From Nesterenkonia massiliensis (lineage in GTDB: Bacteria; Actinomycetota; Actinomycetes; Actinomycetales; Micrococcaceae), in contig NZ_HG005167.1 of NCBI RefSeq assembly GCF_000455245.1, forward strand, positions 82,815-127,209: 44,395 nucleotides of DNA. The letters run 5' to 3'. Below, one piece after another: positions 32,812 through 41,450 of this stretch; positions within the stretch are counted from its first letter, which is position 1; each line of letters begins with the position of its first letter. The notes beneath the pieces were generated by a model. That model searched no databases and had not been told where the DNA came from. It worked only from the letters and a program-made list of their open reading frames with translations. Position numbers and translations under genes: made by a program.

Positions 32812-33510
32812 CTACGGAGTCCACGCCGCTCGAGCCTGGGACTGCTGCCACAGGAACTGATTGATCTCGTCCTGGGGCTGACCCGCTTCGGCAAGGGTTG
32901 ACGTCTCAATGCCTTCCCAAACGGAGGCGAACGCCTCCAAGTGCTCCCACTCACCAATCTCGAGGTAGTCGGGATGGCAGTAGGGATCGGGCATCACGCC
33001 CTGTCCATTCCATTCTTGGGGCCAGCCAACAGGCTGGCCACCGGCGTTGTGGGCAGCCTTATGCGCAAGGGAATCGGCGTCATCGCAACGAAGGTGATGG
33101 ACCTCGACGCCAGCGCCTGCTTCGCCGTCGAGGTGCACTATGTTGATTTTCTGGCCGTCCCCGAAAATCTGCTGGCTGGGTCGGAATACTCGATCCTCAG
33201 CGGGCTCGGCTGGGCAAAGGTGAAGAAGATCATCTTCGGTGAACACTGAATCGGCATCGACGAAGACGTCTATCTTGTCTTCCACACACTCGGGAAGTGT
33301 CATCCCCTCGGCCAATTGTGCTTCCACCACCGGAACGGCGGAGGATTCGTTGTCAGGGCTGTGCTCACCGCCGCTGACCTGTGCTGTTGCAGACTCGCTC
33401 GGGGTTGACGTCTGTTCACTATCAGCAGTCGATGCGAAGGCCGAGCAGGAGGTGGCCAGAACGATTACGCCGATGGCACCGACGACGGGCAGCAGGGGAG
33501 TAGAGCGCAT
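32812..33510 (-). CDS. Putative secreted lipoprotein of unknown function
   Basis: I do not recognise the 232-aa protein as a named family. It begins with a short positively charged end and a hydrophobic stretch (residues 5-19), followed by VLATSC with Cys22 as the probable lipidated residue; Ala at -3 makes the lipobox imperfect. A Ser/Thr/Glu-rich linker follows to about residue 60. The mature part is acidic and has four further cysteines (in LPEC, LHLC, LRC and PYC), which suggests two disulfide bonds outside the membrane. It ends with a Trp- and Gln-rich helix. TATAGG lies 8 nt before the ATG on its strand, with no ribosome binding site. It converges on the tRNA terminator. Confidence 0.75.
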   Translation of the reverse strand: MRSTPLLPVVGAIGVIVLATSCSAFASTADSEQTSTPSESATAQVSGGEHSPDNESSAVPVVEAQLAEGMTLPECVEDKIDVFVDADSVFTEDDLLHLCPAEPAEDRVFRPSQQIFGDGQKINIVHLDGEAGAGVEVHHLRCDDADSLAHKAAHNAGGQPVGWPQEWNGQGVMPDPYCHPDYLEIGEWEHLEAFASVWEGIETSTLAEAGQPQDEINQFLWQQSQARAAWTP

Positions 33511-33693
33511 GCCGTGACCCTATACAGCGGCAGAAGGAGTTGACCAGACCCTGCGCCCTGGCTGCTCAGAGGCAAGATCTCAGTGCCGAGCTCATTTTCG
33601 CCAGAGATAGTCGTGCCGCGGTGAGCGGATACTGCGGCTGGGCGATAGAGTAGACGCGGCGCTGACAAAGCACTTTCCAGGAGGCATTTGAGC

Positions 33694-35034
33694 ATGGATC
33701 GACAGCAGGAATTCGTACTGCGCACCATTGAGGAGCGCGATGTCCGCTTCGTGCGCCTCTGGTTCACCGACGTCGTCGGCTCGCTGAAGTCTGTGGCGCT
33801 GGCCCCGGCTGAGGTGGAAGGAGCTTTCAGCGAAGGACTCGGCTTCGACGGCTCCTCCATTGAGGGACTCTCGCGTATCTCGGAGTCTGACATGCTGCTG
33901 AAGCCGGACCCCTCTACTTTCCAGATTCTGCCCTGGCGTGGCGAGGACGAGCCCACATCCCGCATGTTCTGCGATGTGCTCACTCCTGACCAGGAACCTG
34001 CTGCCGGTGACCCCAGGCATGTACTGCGTCGCCAGCTGGACCAGGCTGCGGAAATGGGCTTCACCGTCTACACCCACCCCGAGGTGGAGTTCTACCTGCT
34101 GGACTCAGAACAGCCAGATGCGCATGGACAGCTGCACCCGGCTGACCGGGCCGGCTACTTCGACCACCTGACCGGATCGGTCTCTCAGGATCTGCGACGT
34201 CACACGGTGAATATGCTCGAAGCCGTGGGCATCTCCGTAGAGTTCAGCCACAATGAGGTGGGCCCGGGGCAGAACGAGATCGACCTGCGATACGCAGATG
34301 CCCTCACCATGGCGGATAACATCATGACCTTCCGCACCATCGTCAAAGAAGTGGCCCTGCAGCACGGCAAATTCGCGACGTTCATGCCGAAACCCTTCTC
34401 TGAGCATCCTGGTTCGGCGATGCACACCCATTTCAGCCTCTTCGAAGGCGACTCCAACGCGTTCTACGCCCCCAATGCGGAGTTCAACCTCTCCACTACG
34501 GCCCGCCAGTTCATTGCCGGCGTTCTGCTTCACGCACCAGAGATCACCGCTGTCACCAACCAGTTCGTGAACTCCTATAAGCGGCTCTGGGGCGGGGGAG
34601 AGGCCCCCAGCCATGTCTCCTGGGGTCATAACAATCGTTCAGCGCTGATGCGCGTACCGCTGTACAAGCCGACTAAGGGCGGCTCCGCACGTATTGAGTT
34701 CCGCGGTATCGACTCTGCAGCCAACCCCTATCTGGCCTATGCGGCGGTCATCGGCGCTGGTCTTAAGGGCATCCGGGAAGGCTATGAACTCGGTGAGGCA
34801 GTGACCGAGGACGTCTGGGCGCTGACCACCGCCGAGCGCAAAGCCCTGGGCATCAATCCGCTCCCGGGCACCCTGCACGAGGCCCTCCGTCAGATGGAGG
34901 AGTCCGAGCTGGTGGCAGAGATCCTCGGGGAGCAGCTCTTCGAGATCTTCCTGCGCAATAAGCGGCAGGAATGGGACGCCTACCGGGTCAATGTCTCTCC
35001 CTTTGAGGTCAGCCAGTACCTCGGGGCTGTCTAA
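33694..35034 (+). CDS. glnA2: Glutamine synthetase type I, GlnA2-like
   Basis: The 446-aa protein has the length and sequence type of actinobacterial GlnA2. Glutamine synthetase motifs are FDGSSIEG near residue 53, PEVEFYL for metal-binding Glu residues, KPFSEHPGSAMHTHFSL for the ATP region, and NNRSALMRVP. The adenylylation loop reads EDVWALTTAERK, with no tyrosine at the site present in GlnA1, so GlnE should not modify it. In-frame TTG at 33688 is too close to AGGAGG; the ATG at 33694 has it 9 nt upstream. TAGAGT at 33646-33651 is a possible -10. glnE follows after 52 nt in the same direction. Some GlnA2-like enzymes may have other roles, such as polyamine use. Confidence 0.93.
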   Translation: MDRQQEFVLRTIEERDVRFVRLWFTDVVGSLKSVALAPAEVEGAFSEGLGFDGSSIEGLSRISESDMLLKPDPSTFQILPWRGEDEPTSRMFCDVLTPDQEPAAGDPRHVLRRQLDQAAEMGFTVYTHPEVEFYLLDSEQPDAHGQLHPADRAGYFDHLTGSVSQDLRRHTVNMLEAVGISVEFSHNEVGPGQNEIDLRYADALTMADNIMTFRTIVKEVALQHGKFATFMPKPFSEHPGSAMHTHFSLFEGDSNAFYAPNAEFNLSTTARQFIAGVLLHAPEITAVTNQFVNSYKRLWGGGEAPSHVSWGHNNRSALMRVPLYKPTKGGSARIEFRGIDSAANPYLAYAAVIGAGLKGIREGYELGEAVTEDVWALTTAERKALGINPLPGTLHEALRQMEESELVAEILGEQLFEIFLRNKRQEWDAYRVNVSPFEVSQYLGAV

Positions 35035-35086: not shown

Positions 35087-38000
35087 TTGAGCACCAGCAC
35101 TGTTTCAGCACGTGACCTGATCGCGGCAGGCTTTCAGGAGCTTGAACGCGCTAAGACCTTCCTGTGCGACAAACAGCTTCAGGATTTCAACACCGATGCC
35201 CTGATCACCACGCTGCGCCATGCCCCGCAGCCGGATCAAGCGCTTCTGCTCCTGATCCGGCTCCTCGAGCGGGCACCGCAGATCCGCCGCCTCTTCGCGG
35301 ACGACGACGGCGAGGTCTATCCTGAAGCGCTCCCGCTGGCCCGTCTGCTTGGGGCTTCGGAAGCGCTCACGGAGTTTCTCATCCGGCATCCGGAGAACAC
35401 CGACGTCCTCTTCGAGGACTATTCCGCAGAGCCGGCGGAGGTCTCGTCGTCCACATTGCGCACCACGATGCTGACCGCGGCTGGAGCCGACCCGCAAGCC
35501 CCTGGGAATCCGCTCGCCAGACTCAGCGAAGATTTCACCGCCACCGAGGCAGCCTGCCAGGTACGGGTGGCCTACCGCCGTGAGATCACCCGGCTGGCGC
35601 TGCGTGACTTGTGCGCCGCGGATCCATTGGCCTATCAGCCGGCAGTCTCACGTCAGCTCGCCGACGCCGCCTCAGCCGCCATTGAGGCAGGTCTGGCGAT
35701 TTCACGCGCGCACCTGCAGCAGCGTCGACCCTCAGCTGAACGGGTCGATCTGGCCGTGATCGGCATGGGCAAATGCGGTGCCCGGGAACTGAATTACATC
35801 TCCGATGTGGATGTGGTTTTTGTGCACCGGGCACCCGAGGAGATGGACGACACTGAAGGGCTGAACTGCGCCGCCGCACTGGCCAGCGGTATCTCCCAGG
35901 CCCTGGGGGCATCCCACGGGGAGCCCGCACTCTGGGAGATTGATGCGAATCTGCGGCCCGAGGGGAAGGACGGGCCGCTCTCACGCACGCTAGCCTCCCA
36001 CCAGGAGTACTATCGCCGCTGGGCCCACGGTTGGGAGTTCCAAGCGCTGCTGAAAGCACGCCCTATTGCTGGCAGCCCTGAGCTGGGACAGCAGTATATG
36101 GACAGCATCTGGCCGCTGGTCTGGCAGTCCTCCGCTCGGGAGGGTTTTGTGGAGGACGCTCAGGGCATGCGGCGGCGAGTGTTCGAGAATATACCCGCAG
36201 GACAGGCGCATCGGGAGATCAAACTGGGCCGCGGTGGACTGCGTGACATCGAGTTCACCGTTCAGCTGCTGCAGCTGGTGCACGGCCGGGTAGATGAGAA
36301 CCTGCACGTGCGAGACACCCTCAGCGCTATCACGGCCCTGGCCGAGGGCGAATACATGTCCAGTAAGGACGCGGAGGCCATGTCGCGGTGCTACCGGCAG
36401 CTGCGCCTCTACGAGCACCGCATTCAGATGACGCATATGCGCCGCACCCACCTCATGCCGGAAAAAGAGGACCAACTGCGCGCCCTTGCGCAAGCCAGCC
36501 GTCCACCAGGCGAGCTTCGACGTCCAGCGCCAGATGAAGTCCTCGACGCCTGGCGGAAAGTGGTTCGTGAGGTCTCCACCTTCCATGAAAAGATCTTCTA
36601 CCGCCCACTGCTGTCCACCACAGCCGTGCTTTCCGACGACGATGTGCGGCTCTCCGCTGAGGCCGCACAAGCGCGCCTGATGGCACTGGGGTACCGCGAC
36701 GCGGCAGGGGCGATGCGGCACATCAATGCCCTGACCCAGGGTGTGGCCCGGCGCGCTACGCTGCAGAAGCGGATCTTGCCGGCCATGCTGGGCTGGTTCG
36801 CCGAAGGAGTCGATCCCGATGCCGGACTTTTGGCCTTCCGGCGGCTGAGCGAATCCCTGGGCACGAGCCCGTGGTATCTGACGATGCTTCGGGACTCGTC
36901 CATGGCGGCAGAGCGGCTGTGCCACATTCTCTCCAGTTCGAAGCTGATCTCTCAGATGCTGGAGCACTCTCCAGAGTCCACTAGATGGTTGGGCGACGAC
37001 GACGCCCTGAAGCCCCGCAGTTTTGAGACGCTCTGGGCGGAGGTCCAGAACGCGATCGCGCGCCATGACGGCGAAACTGCCACAGCGGTGCGGCTGGCCC
37101 GGTTGGTCCGTCAGCGCGAGATGCTGAGAACGGCAGTGGCAGATGCCTCAGGGCTGTTGCAGCTGGAGGAGGTCGGGGAGGCTCTCTCCTTGGCTGATCG
37201 AGTCGCCACCCTGGGAGCGCTGAGGGTCGCCGAGAACGAGATTTTCGAAGCCGAAGGTCAGAAGATTGATTTTCTGGTGGTCGCCATGGGGCGCCAAGGT
37301 GGTCGAGAAATCACCTACGGCTCGGACTTGGATGCGCTGTACGTACACCGTGCCCGGCCGGATGTCTCAACGGCAGAAGCCGACCAACAGGCGCAGAAGC
37401 TCGCCCAGCGCCTCTCAGCGTTACTGTCGAAACCGATCCGACCAGCGGTGAAGGGAGAGTTCCCGCTGCAGATTGACGCTGATCTGCGTCCCGAGGGGAG
37501 AAAGGGGCTGCTGACGCGGTCTCTGGAGTCCTACCGGGAGTATTACCGGCGCTGGATGGCAGTCTGGGAGCGGCAAGCACTGCTCAGGGCCCGGCCGCTT
37601 GCCGGTAGTGACGCCCTGTCCGCTGACTTTATGGAACTGGTGGACTCCATCCGTTACGGTGAGCCACCCGACTCCGCGCAGATCCGGGAGATTCGGCGCA
37701 TCAAAGCCCGTGTGGAATCCGAGCGGCTGCCGCGCGGGGCTGATCCGGCGCGCCACGTGAAACTCGGACGCGGAGGCTTAAGCGACGTCGAGTGGCTGGT
37801 TCAGCTGATGCAGCTTCAGCACGGACATGAGGAGAAGCTCTTGCGCACCACCTCCACACTTACGGCATTGAACGGACTGGTAGACCGGCAGCTGATGAGC
37901 CCGGTTGACGCTGCCGTACTGGCTGATGCTTGGACACTGTGCAGCCGGGTTCGTGCTGCCATCATGGTGTGGAGCGGCAAGACCTCTGATGTCCTGCCCG

Positions 38001-38137
38001 CGGCCCGGCGTGACCTTGAAGCGATTTCCCGCTGGTGCGGATACGACGCCGGGCACGCGTCAGCATTCGAAGAGGACTATCTGCGAACCACCCGGCGCAG
38101 CCGGCAGGTCTTCGAGCGGCTGTTCTACGAGACCTGA
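35087..38137 (+). CDS. glnE: Glutamine synthetase adenylyltransferase/deadenylase
   Basis: GlnE attaches and removes AMP on a tyrosine of GlnA1 to switch glutamine synthetase off and on. The 1016-aa protein has two nucleotidyltransferase domains. The N-terminal one carries [20 protein letters not shown] (about residues 225-244) and the C-terminal one [20 protein letters not shown] (about 731-750), both with the G-S/D-x-D-x-D metal site. Linker helical regions and repeated [11 protein letters not shown] motifs also match. The start is a TTG with AAAGGA 5 nt upstream; no other start is near. Its 3' end overlaps the convergent LLM gene by 13 bp. TAGGCT at 35063-35068 may be a promoter element. 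Confidence 0.96.
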
Positions 38138-39372: not shown

Positions 39373-40803
39373 TCAGACCGAGAAGTACAGCTCGAACTCG
39401 TAGGGGTTCGGGCGCAGGTTCAGCGGGGCGATCTCTTCCTCGCGCTTGTACTCGATCCACGCCTGGATCAGTTCCTCGGTGAATACACCGCCTTCGAGCA
39501 GGAACTCGTGATCAGCCTCGAGTGCTTCCAGCGCCTCGTCCAGAGAACCGGGAGCCTGCGGGATGTCCTTGAGCTCCTCGGCGGGCAGCTCGTAGAGGTC
39601 CTTATCCACTGGTTCGTGGGGCTCGATGCGGTTCTTGATGCCGTCCAGGCCGGCCATCAGCATGGCGGCGAAGGCCAGGTACGGGTTGCCGGAGGCGTCA
39701 GGCGCACGGAATTCGATGCGCTTGGCCTTCGGGTTGGAACCGGTGATGGGGATGCGGATCGCGGCAGAGCGGTTGCCCTGCGAGTAGACCAGGGAGACCG
39801 GGGCCTCGTAGCCCTTGACCAGGCGCTTGTAGGAGTTCACCGTGGGGTTGGTGAACGCCAGCAGAGCATGGGCGTGCTTGAGGATGCCGCCGATGTACCA
39901 GCGTGCGGTATCAGAGAGGTTGGCGTAGCCAGTCTCGGAGTAGAACAGCGGATCTCCGTCTGACCACAGGGACTGGTGGACGTGCATGCCCGAGCCGTTC
40001 TCTTCGAAGACGGGCTTAGGCATGAAGGTGGCAACCAGACCGAACTGGTCAGCAGTGTTCTTCACCACGTACTTGAACTTCTGGATGTCATCGGCAGCCA
40101 GGGTCAGAGTGTTGAACTTGTAGTTGATCTCCTGCTGGCCGGGACCAGCCACCTCGTGGTGGGACCGCTCTACGGAGAGACCTGCGCGCTCCAGCGCCAG
40201 GACGATCTCGTCACGGACTTCAGCGGTCTTGTCCTGTGGGGAGACGGGGTAGTAGCCGCCCTTATGGGCCAGCTTGTGAGCGTCAGATACGCCGTCGAAC
40301 TCACGGGAGTTCTCATTGCCCCAGGTGGCCTCGCGTGCCGTCAGGGAGTAGAAGGACTCCTGGGGGCTGGACTTGAAGGACACGGAGTCAAACAGGAAGA
40401 ACTCGGCTTCTGGGCCGAAGAAAGCAGTATCAGCGATACCCGAGGATGCCAGGTACTGCTCGGCCTTCTGAGCCACGCCGCGCGGGTCGCGGCCATAGGG
40501 CTCACCGGTGCGGGGGTTGATGATGGAGAACGTCATGACCAGGGTCTTGGCCACGCGGTACTCGTCAATAAACGCGGTGGAGGGATCCGGGATCAGCTGC
40601 ATATCGGAATCCTGGATGCCCTGGAATCCGCGGATGGAGGAGCCGTCGAAGAGCTGGCCGTTCTCGAAGAAGTCGAGGTCCACGGTGTGGGCGGGAACGT
40701 TGAAGTGGTGCTGGAGACCGGGAAGATCCGTGAACCGGATGTCAACGAACTTGACGTCCTCTTCCTCGATGAACTTCAGAACTTCTTCAGGGCTGGAAAA
40801 CAT
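39373..40803 (-). CDS. glnA: Glutamine synthetase type I, adenylylation-regulated (GlnA1)
   Basis: The 476-aa enzyme makes glutamine from glutamate, ammonia and ATP and has the usual GSI-beta length. It contains FDGSSIRGF near residue 46, [26 protein letters not shown] and [10 protein letters not shown]. The adenylylation site is visible as DLYELPAEE with Tyr404 (codon at 39592-39594), so the neighbouring GlnE can regulate it. The frame opens at 40893, but the ATG at 40803 has GAGGAG 10 nt upstream and begins the conserved [12 protein letters not shown]. Upstream lies a tandem GlnR-type operator, so transcription is probably nitrogen-controlled as well. A hairpin terminator follows. Confidence 0.97.
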
Positions 40804-40898
40804 TGCGTCCGTGCTCCTCATCTGAGTGACTTTTACTGTGAGCCGCAGCGATTCCCTAGGCGGGGACGTGCCGGGTAAAGCGGCGGCGCTCACCCCTC

Positions 40899-40904
40899 AC
40901 CCTA
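40899..40904 (-). promoter_or_regulatory. -10 element of glnA1
   Basis: On the minus strand TAGGGT lies 11 nt downstream of the GlnR-type operator and 95 nt before the ATG. The operator then covers the -35 region, the usual place for an activator such as GlnR. Confidence 0.5.
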
Positions 40905-40915
40905 CCGACACTGCG

Positions 40916-40953
40916 ATTTCCCCGCGGTCACGCATTTGTTTCGGGCATGTTAC
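40916..40953 (-). promoter_or_regulatory. Tandem GlnR-type operator upstream of glnA1
   Basis: On the minus strand the site reads GTAAC-N6-GAAAC-N6-GTGAC-N6-GAAAT. This is two copies of the actinobacterial GlnR consensus gTnAC-N6-GaAAc in phase, with only the last base off consensus. GlnR is the global nitrogen regulator in Streptomyces and mycobacteria. Four half-sites at 11-bp steps place the recognition elements on one face of the helix. The element lies between divergent glnA1 and the RDD gene, but its promoter geometry fits glnA1. Confidence 0.85.
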
Positions 40954-41025: not shown

Positions 41026-41039
41026 TAGACTGGCACCTC
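41026..41039 (+). promoter_or_regulatory. Leaderless promoter of the RDD gene
   Basis: TAGACT at 41026-41031 is followed by 8 nt and the GTG at 41040, without a ribosome binding site. It is the third exact TAGACT in this position in the window, after uvrA and the MBL hydrolase. Confidence 0.55.
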
Positions 41040-41450
41040 GTGAGCACAACCAACGACGACGCCTGGCCCGGACAGCAGCTGGGCCTGCCCGCTGAGGGCC
41101 CTGGTTCCCTGGCGCCTTGGAGCAGACGGATTCTTGCGCTGTTTATCGACTGGGGTATTGCAAGTCTCATCTCAGCGACCTGGTTCGACCTCAACGTCTG
41201 GGTGACCCTGGGCATCTTCCTGCTGATGCATGTTGTACTGCTTGGGCTGCTAGGAGTCACGATCGGCAAGCGACTTGTGCGCTTACAGGTGGTGCGATTG
41301 GTGCCCGGTGAGCCTGCGCGGACGCCAGGGCCGGTCTGGGCGTTGGTTCGCTCCGGGTTGCTGCTTCTGGTCCTGCCAACCGTGGTGATTTCCCCCGATG
41401 GGCGCGGGGCACATGACAAAATCGCAGGAACGGTTCAGGTGCGCATGTAG
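41040..41450 (+). CDS. RDD-family membrane protein
   Basis: The 136-aa protein shows the RDD pattern: PWSRRILALFIDWGIA carries the conserved Arg and first Asp in helix 1, TIGKRLVRLQVVR follows helix 2, and a third helix ends before PDGRGAHDKIAGT with the final Asp. Three hydrophobic helices are apparent (about residues 31-46, 51-72 and 99-114). RDD proteins are small integral membrane proteins of mixed or unknown function; some act as ion antiporters. The frame continues upstream into the GlnR operator, but GTG at 41040 fits both the promoter and the family. In actinobacteria an RDD gene is often found next to glnA. Confidence 0.85.
   Translation: MSTTNDDAWPGQQLGLPAEGPGSLAPWSRRILALFIDWGIASLISATWFDLNVWVTLGIFLLMHVVLLGLLGVTIGKRLVRLQVVRLVPGEPARTPGPVWALVRSGLLLLVLPTVVISPDGRGAHDKIAGTVQVRM

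Follow-up and report, generated by a model that had tools for sequence, protein, structure and literature searches.

The question raised by this locus is whether the short repeats found between the glutamine synthetase gene glnA1 and a divergent gene for an RDD-family membrane protein are a site for the nitrogen regulator GlnR, and which of the two genes they serve. The whole stretch of DNA analysed, 44,395 bases long, is denominated here the window. The 38-bp element is very probably a canonical two-box (a-b-a-b) GlnR operator activating glnA1. The features of interest are as follows.

33688..35034, plus strand: glnA2, glutamine synthetase-like; upstream region devoid of a GlnR box, Tyr missing from the adenylylation position
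35087..38137, plus strand: glnE, glutamine synthetase adenylyltransferase/deadenylylase, complete (NF010707, 1259.6 bits)
39373..40803, minus strand: glnA1, type I glutamine synthetase (TIGR00653, 649.4 bits), Tyr loop DKDLYELP
40899..40904, minus strand: TAGGGT, candidate glnA1 -10 element, separated from the last half-site by 11 nt
40916..40953, minus strand: predicted GlnR operator, a-b-a-b, four 5-bp half-sites in 11-bp register
40953-40949, 40942-40938, 40931-40927 and 40920-40916, minus strand: operator half-sites GTAAC, GAAAC, GTGAC and GAAAT, respectively
41026..41031, plus strand: TAGACT, candidate RDD -10 element of leaderless type, with GTG 41040 following at 8 nt
41040..41450, plus strand: RDD-family membrane protein gene (PF06271, 34.2 bits, cut-off 24.1), start chosen by eye

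Read directly, the minus strand from 40953 to 40916 is GTAACATGCCCGAAACAAATGCGTGACCGCGGGGAAAT, four half-sites spaced as GTAAC-N6-GAAAC-N6-GTGAC-N6-GAAAT in an 11-bp register. They lie exactly where a sequence-only reading had set two in-phase GlnR boxes, in the intergenic region delimited by the glnA1 ATG (40803, minus strand) and the RDD GTG (41040, plus strand). The consensus gTnAc-n6-GaAAc-n6-GtnAC-n6-GAAAc of Tiffert et al. 2008 is quoted in the accessible part of a review (PMC10704036). Compared to GTNAC/GAAAC, 17 of the 18 fixed letters match, and no other sequence in the window scores 14/18 or more; in 60 dinucleotide-preserving shuffles of the window the highest score was 15, and matches scoring at least 14 averaged 0.07. 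The host genome (2.67 Mb, 99.96% complete) was scanned allowing up to three mismatches, either GAAAC or GAAAT being accepted as last half-site. The operator was found with no mismatches, along with one other match with three (C3:284630); a reversed control pattern gave none in the same 2.67 Mb at the same threshold. The C3:284630 match has no TANNNT within the following 28 nt and no convincing gene, and was set aside as fortuitous. A 54-nt model built on the glnA1 sites of other genomes (35 in all) recognizes the operator at 32.2 bits (E 7.4e-9). The element is oriented toward glnA1; it lies on the coding strand of this nitrogen-assimilation gene and adjoins the -10, the TAGGGT predicted downstream of the box being present at 40904-40899. 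The hexamer found 17 bp upstream of TAGGGT is CCGCGG (40927-40922), which falls inside the box and is not TTGACA-like.

The sequence-only reading had made its proposal depend on a GlnR homologue in the genome. One is encoded away from the glnA1 locus (at L006), at G000:C2:104396-105088. The protein matches PF21695 (GlnR_1st) with 124.2 bits (cut-off 27, 3e-36) and the PDB chains 8hih (2.8e-74) and 8hig (3.9e-70), both labelled regulatory proteins and which we take to be GlnR; the similarity to chain 4o1h, named GlnR, is lower (1.5e-20). A Corynebacterium origin with control by AmtR was set aside given this gene and the 88% identity of the glnA1 product to that of Nesterenkonia haasae, although an additional AmtR may occur. 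In the glnA1 tree N. haasae falls inside the same genus group, and is identical to the G007 fragment. As a separate observation, a tandem array (L140:1363-1746) is found on contig C2 about 2 kb from glnR; it consists of 5.4 copies of a 65-bp unit, and GGCGGGGAAACCCCGC recurs in it every 65 bp.

The start of glnA1 was taken at ATG 40803, which follows GAGGAG and was chosen from the sequence; the mechanical ORF start is at 40893. The Tyr loop DKDLYELP is common to PDB chains 4xyc and 1hto, which we take to be M. tuberculosis proteins, and its Tyr is presumably the adenylylated residue. Both marks of GlnE-regulated GSI-beta enzymes, a Tyr in the adenylylation loop and a glnE gene, are therefore present. 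With a complete glnE and the Tyr loop kept, the sequence supports the earlier suggestion that adenylylation by GlnE is a second level of control on the glnA1 product. GlnA2 reads DVWAL at the Tyr-loop position. The best GlnR-like score before glnA2, on either strand of the interval 33301-33760, is 9/18, which agrees with the earlier statement that no similar site occurs there. That the two synthetases are under different control is only suggestive, because the glnA2 promoter of S. coelicolor is shifted by GlnR, more efficiently when the protein is acetylated, and a gTnAc motif was reported there (PMC8998196, text available in part).

The operator is conserved in the genus. Within two mismatches it is found in 29 of 30 genomes, the only exception being a genome 65% complete, and the reversed control gave one match in 30; GlnR is encoded in all 30 (E 1.5e-97 or better). 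The genus loci examined were 31, i.e. L095 and L096 of the host genome, the best match in each of 28 other genomes (L099-L126), and a second match in G002 (L127). TANNNT is found 10 or 11 nt past the last half-site in 29 of them, being absent at L096 and L127, and thus in 29/29 when the best site per genome is considered. A glnA1 start was seen downstream in 28 of these 29 (L125 is the exception). In the 29 loci (L095, L099-L126; segment 40899-40915 in the window), the gap between box and -10 is 11 nt in 17, the window included, and 10 nt in 12.

The same set of loci bears on the divergent gene. The box might also control RDD, functioning as a shared two-way operator, since it lies in the intergenic region common to both genes, and the sequence-only reading had included RDD among the genes whose expression was to be compared at low and high nitrogen. 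In L101, L104, L112 and L113 the box is only 16 nt away from a TANNNT that is followed, 8 nt on, by a start codon, and bound GlnR could block this element there. Such shared control is unlikely in the window, where the candidate -10 of RDD is 72 nt from the box, which is itself oriented toward glnA1. On the RDD side, 14 of the 29 genus loci have a TANNNT with a start codon 7 or 8 nt beyond it (any start codon on that side being counted, whichever gene it opened), at 16 to 72 nt from the box, whereas the distance on the glnA1 side is 10-11 nt. A distance so variable denotes no fixed link between RDD and box. All the 14 loci have the 11-nt gap; none of the 12 loci with the 10-nt gap has an RDD-side candidate promoter, one case in L120, 1 nt from the box, having been left uncounted. 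Nothing thus ties RDD to the box, and control of this gene by GlnR is not supported; judging from its sequence, this gene may have a promoter of its own that yields a leaderless message.

Across the phylum, the 350 nt upstream of glnA1 were scanned in 80 relatives, and 45 of them have a site scoring at least 14/18. These counts come from the scan of all the 80 relatives; a smaller scan took 38 of the 80, picked by hand. All the 45 sites carry TANNNT, either at 10 nt (44) or at 11 nt (one, Nesterenkonia haasae). At the same threshold no match was found in in-gene stretches (0/80) or on the reverse strand (0/80); lowering it to 13, the corresponding figures are 0/80 and 6/80. Among the 35 relatives scoring below 14 are Brevibacterium, freshwater actinobacteria and six Corynebacterium loci; four further Corynebacterium loci belong to the 45.

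The association of operator and regulator was monitored across the family, which was sampled evenly to give 100 genomes. The same 85 of these encode GlnR whether judged by protein search (E 1e-30 or better) or by the Pfam cut-off. GlnR was counted only above the PF21695 cut-off; matches below it occur in three of 14 control genomes and in six of the 15 family genomes taken to lack GlnR. The box followed by the -10 at a 10-nt gap, with up to three mismatches, was found in 80 of the 85 genomes hosting GlnR and in one of the 15 lacking it, and the reversed control pattern in 2/100. The 81 matches were counted by pattern alone, position before glnA1 not being a criterion, and the intact 11-nt sites of G000 and G025 are among them as matches with three mismatches. 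A Fisher test gives 4e-12, a value to be taken only as a guide because the genomes are related and not independent.

Operator pattern and regulator are absent together across one family. In genus g14, two genomes have both GlnR and site, and two have neither. G073 lacks GlnR and keeps a site before glnA1 (L178). This site has two mismatches, a number equalled or exceeded in many genomes that encode GlnR. Both fall on the A at the fourth position of a half-site (GAAGC, GAATC), a base that is invariant in the 35 glnA1 sites compared and is called irreplaceable in the portion of the review consulted (PMC10704036). Of its genus-mates, G045 has GlnR and a site with no mismatches, and G096 has neither. 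Five GlnR-bearing genomes (G030, G041, G043, G057, G070) have no match within three mismatches. Taken with the 35 relatives scoring below 14, they denote that glnA1 can do without a consensus box.

The element might be bound by another OmpR-type regulator, of the PhoP/PhoB type, in which case it would respond to phosphate and not to nitrogen, or PhoP might compete for part of it. The OmpR-type DNA-binding domain (PF00486) is found 11 times in the host genome, ten times besides GlnR, and the PhoP sites of S. coelicolor overlap those of GlnR at glnA, glnII and amtB, according to the available sections of the review (PMC10704036). Such an overlap would be an added layer and not a replacement. All four repeats fit the GlnR half-site pattern, and this pattern goes with GlnR across the family, which makes a different regulator quite improbable. 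A chance resemblance, to which only the shortness of the half-sites lends weight, has a negligible probability and is refuted already by the conservation in genus, phylum and family with their controls; the shuffles and the genome-wide control also speak against it. The reading of the element as a GlnR operator for glnA1 is therefore borne out by the GlnR gene, by conservation in genus and phylum at a near-fixed distance from the -10, and by the family-wide co-occurrence. Counting against it are the 35/80 relatives below 14 and the five GlnR-bearing family genomes with no match, the lack of a box at amtB and the weakness of the nirB/nirD sites (see below), and a gap of 11 nt instead of the usual 10.

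The 11-nt gap is one small new detail, 10 nt being the rule in almost all the other actinobacteria examined; in the GlnR literature searched, as far as the texts are available, no discussion of the box-to--10 spacing was found. In the family sample the 11-nt arrangement is found with no mismatches only in G000 and G025, which are of the same genus. The remaining 18 of the 20 matches listed have two or three mismatches, and most of these are 10-nt sites read one base out. Matches in G080, G082 and G114 look like chance; in G080, which lacks GlnR, the hexamer is intact and the box has three mismatches. In the glnA1 tree, the 11-nt loci fall into three groups. The tree holds 31 of 37 loci (L024, L026, L027, L029, L112 and L125 were dropped for lack of a usable frame, and L034 has a long branch) and leaves the base of the genus unplaced. 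As a rather doubtful suggestion drawn from this gap, the GlnR-RNA polymerase complex in part of Nesterenkonia may tolerate the 1-bp shift or have adapted to it. If true, the 11-nt glnA1 promoters would be a natural test of how rigid the complex is. The occurrence of both 10- and 11-nt gaps offers, on a small scale, a natural experiment in how GlnR-activated promoters are laid out.

Other candidate sites were sought in the host genome with the 54-nt model (R1). The search scored 150 of 412 candidates, and weaker sites may be missed. Besides the operator, it found two weaker matches (19.7 bits, E 0.002, and 16.2 bits, E 0.03; E values are rough) between nirB and nirD, 67 nt apart and pointing outwards.

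L184:9739-9885 (G000:C2:73738-73884), outward-facing: putative GlnR-like promoter pair, nirB/nirD

Each of the two sites has TAGCGT 10 nt after the last half-site. Judging from these sequences, nirB/nirD is a probable, weaker GlnR target pair; it is not a certain one because the sites match positions 15-54 of the model only, and score 12-13 of 18. A regulon made of one gene was a notion dropped once this pair was found. amtB is a classical GlnR target. No box scoring 13 or more was found before either amtB of the host genome or near glnR. A 14/18 GlnR-like site is located upstream of a third glutamine synthetase (L138:12191, minus strand), with no TANNNT at 10-11 nt. The region L138:7662-12106 (contig C5) features, by eye, the third glutamine synthetase-like gene along with class-II glutaminase-like, GXGXG-domain-like and FAD oxidoreductase-like genes, and presumably resembles an N-methylglutamate (methylamine) cluster. 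The six extra sites examined in relatives precede genes, identified by eye, for nitrite reductase and an NCS1-type permease (both in G090), a carbon-nitrogen hydrolase (G028) and, in G002, G003 and G006, three ABC transporter ATPases. TANNNT is found at 10 or 11 nt in three of the six, i.e. both G090 sites and G006.

By analogy with relatives and with the literature, the operator is expected to function as follows. Under nitrogen limitation a GlnR tetramer would occupy the four half-sites in head-to-tail order, and would recruit RNA polymerase to a promoter that has the TAGGGT -10 and no match to a -35, the box taking the place of the latter. The glutamine synthetase, once made, would be trimmed after synthesis through adenylylation by GlnE. 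In a GlnR-polymerase structure described in the part of the review at hand (PMC10704036), four DNA-binding domains sit head to tail on four sites and the receiver domains form a tetramer.

Similar promoters are widespread. The glnA1 promoters of mycobacteria, Rhodococcus, Nocardia, Cellulomonas, Curtobacterium and others likewise feature an a-b-a-b box followed by TANNNT. They differ from the window in the gap, which is 10 nt in 44 of the 45 promoters scoring at least 14, and mycobacterial boxes, unlike that of the window, have GCAAC b half-sites. No paper joining GlnR and Nesterenkonia was found in the literature search. Arthrobacter sp. M7-15 presumably belongs to the same bacterial family. 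GlnR has been proposed there, from transcriptome data, to control glnA and perhaps nitrite reduction, and no description of the operator was seen in the accessible text of that report (PMC12010642).

A different regulator, AmtR, is known in Corynebacterium; the likeness lies in the nitrogen control of glnA in an actinobacterium, and the AmtR site differs from the GlnR site. Corynebacterium glutamicum, one of the 14 control genomes, has no GlnR_1st match. Four Corynebacterium glnA1 loci (L063, L088, L089, L093) carry a GlnR-type box scoring 15/18 with TANNNT at 10 nt. AmtR of C. glutamicum is of the TetR family, as given in the available part of one paper (PMC8864220), and C. glutamicum is listed as devoid of a GlnR site in the accessible pages of the review (PMC10704036).

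A close parallel is the glnA operator of Streptomyces coelicolor, which has the same gene, four half-sites and the 11-bp register; compared to its consensus, the last half-site of the window ends in T (GAAAT). In the comparison made by Tiffert 2008, cited in the part of the review available (PMC10704036), 10 of the 11 actinomycetes have the consensus site before glnA. The element is a standard, already known actinobacterial nitrogen-control switch before the main glutamine synthetase gene, and assigns a Nesterenkonia-like genome to GlnR-type nitrogen control, in an otherwise textbook arrangement.
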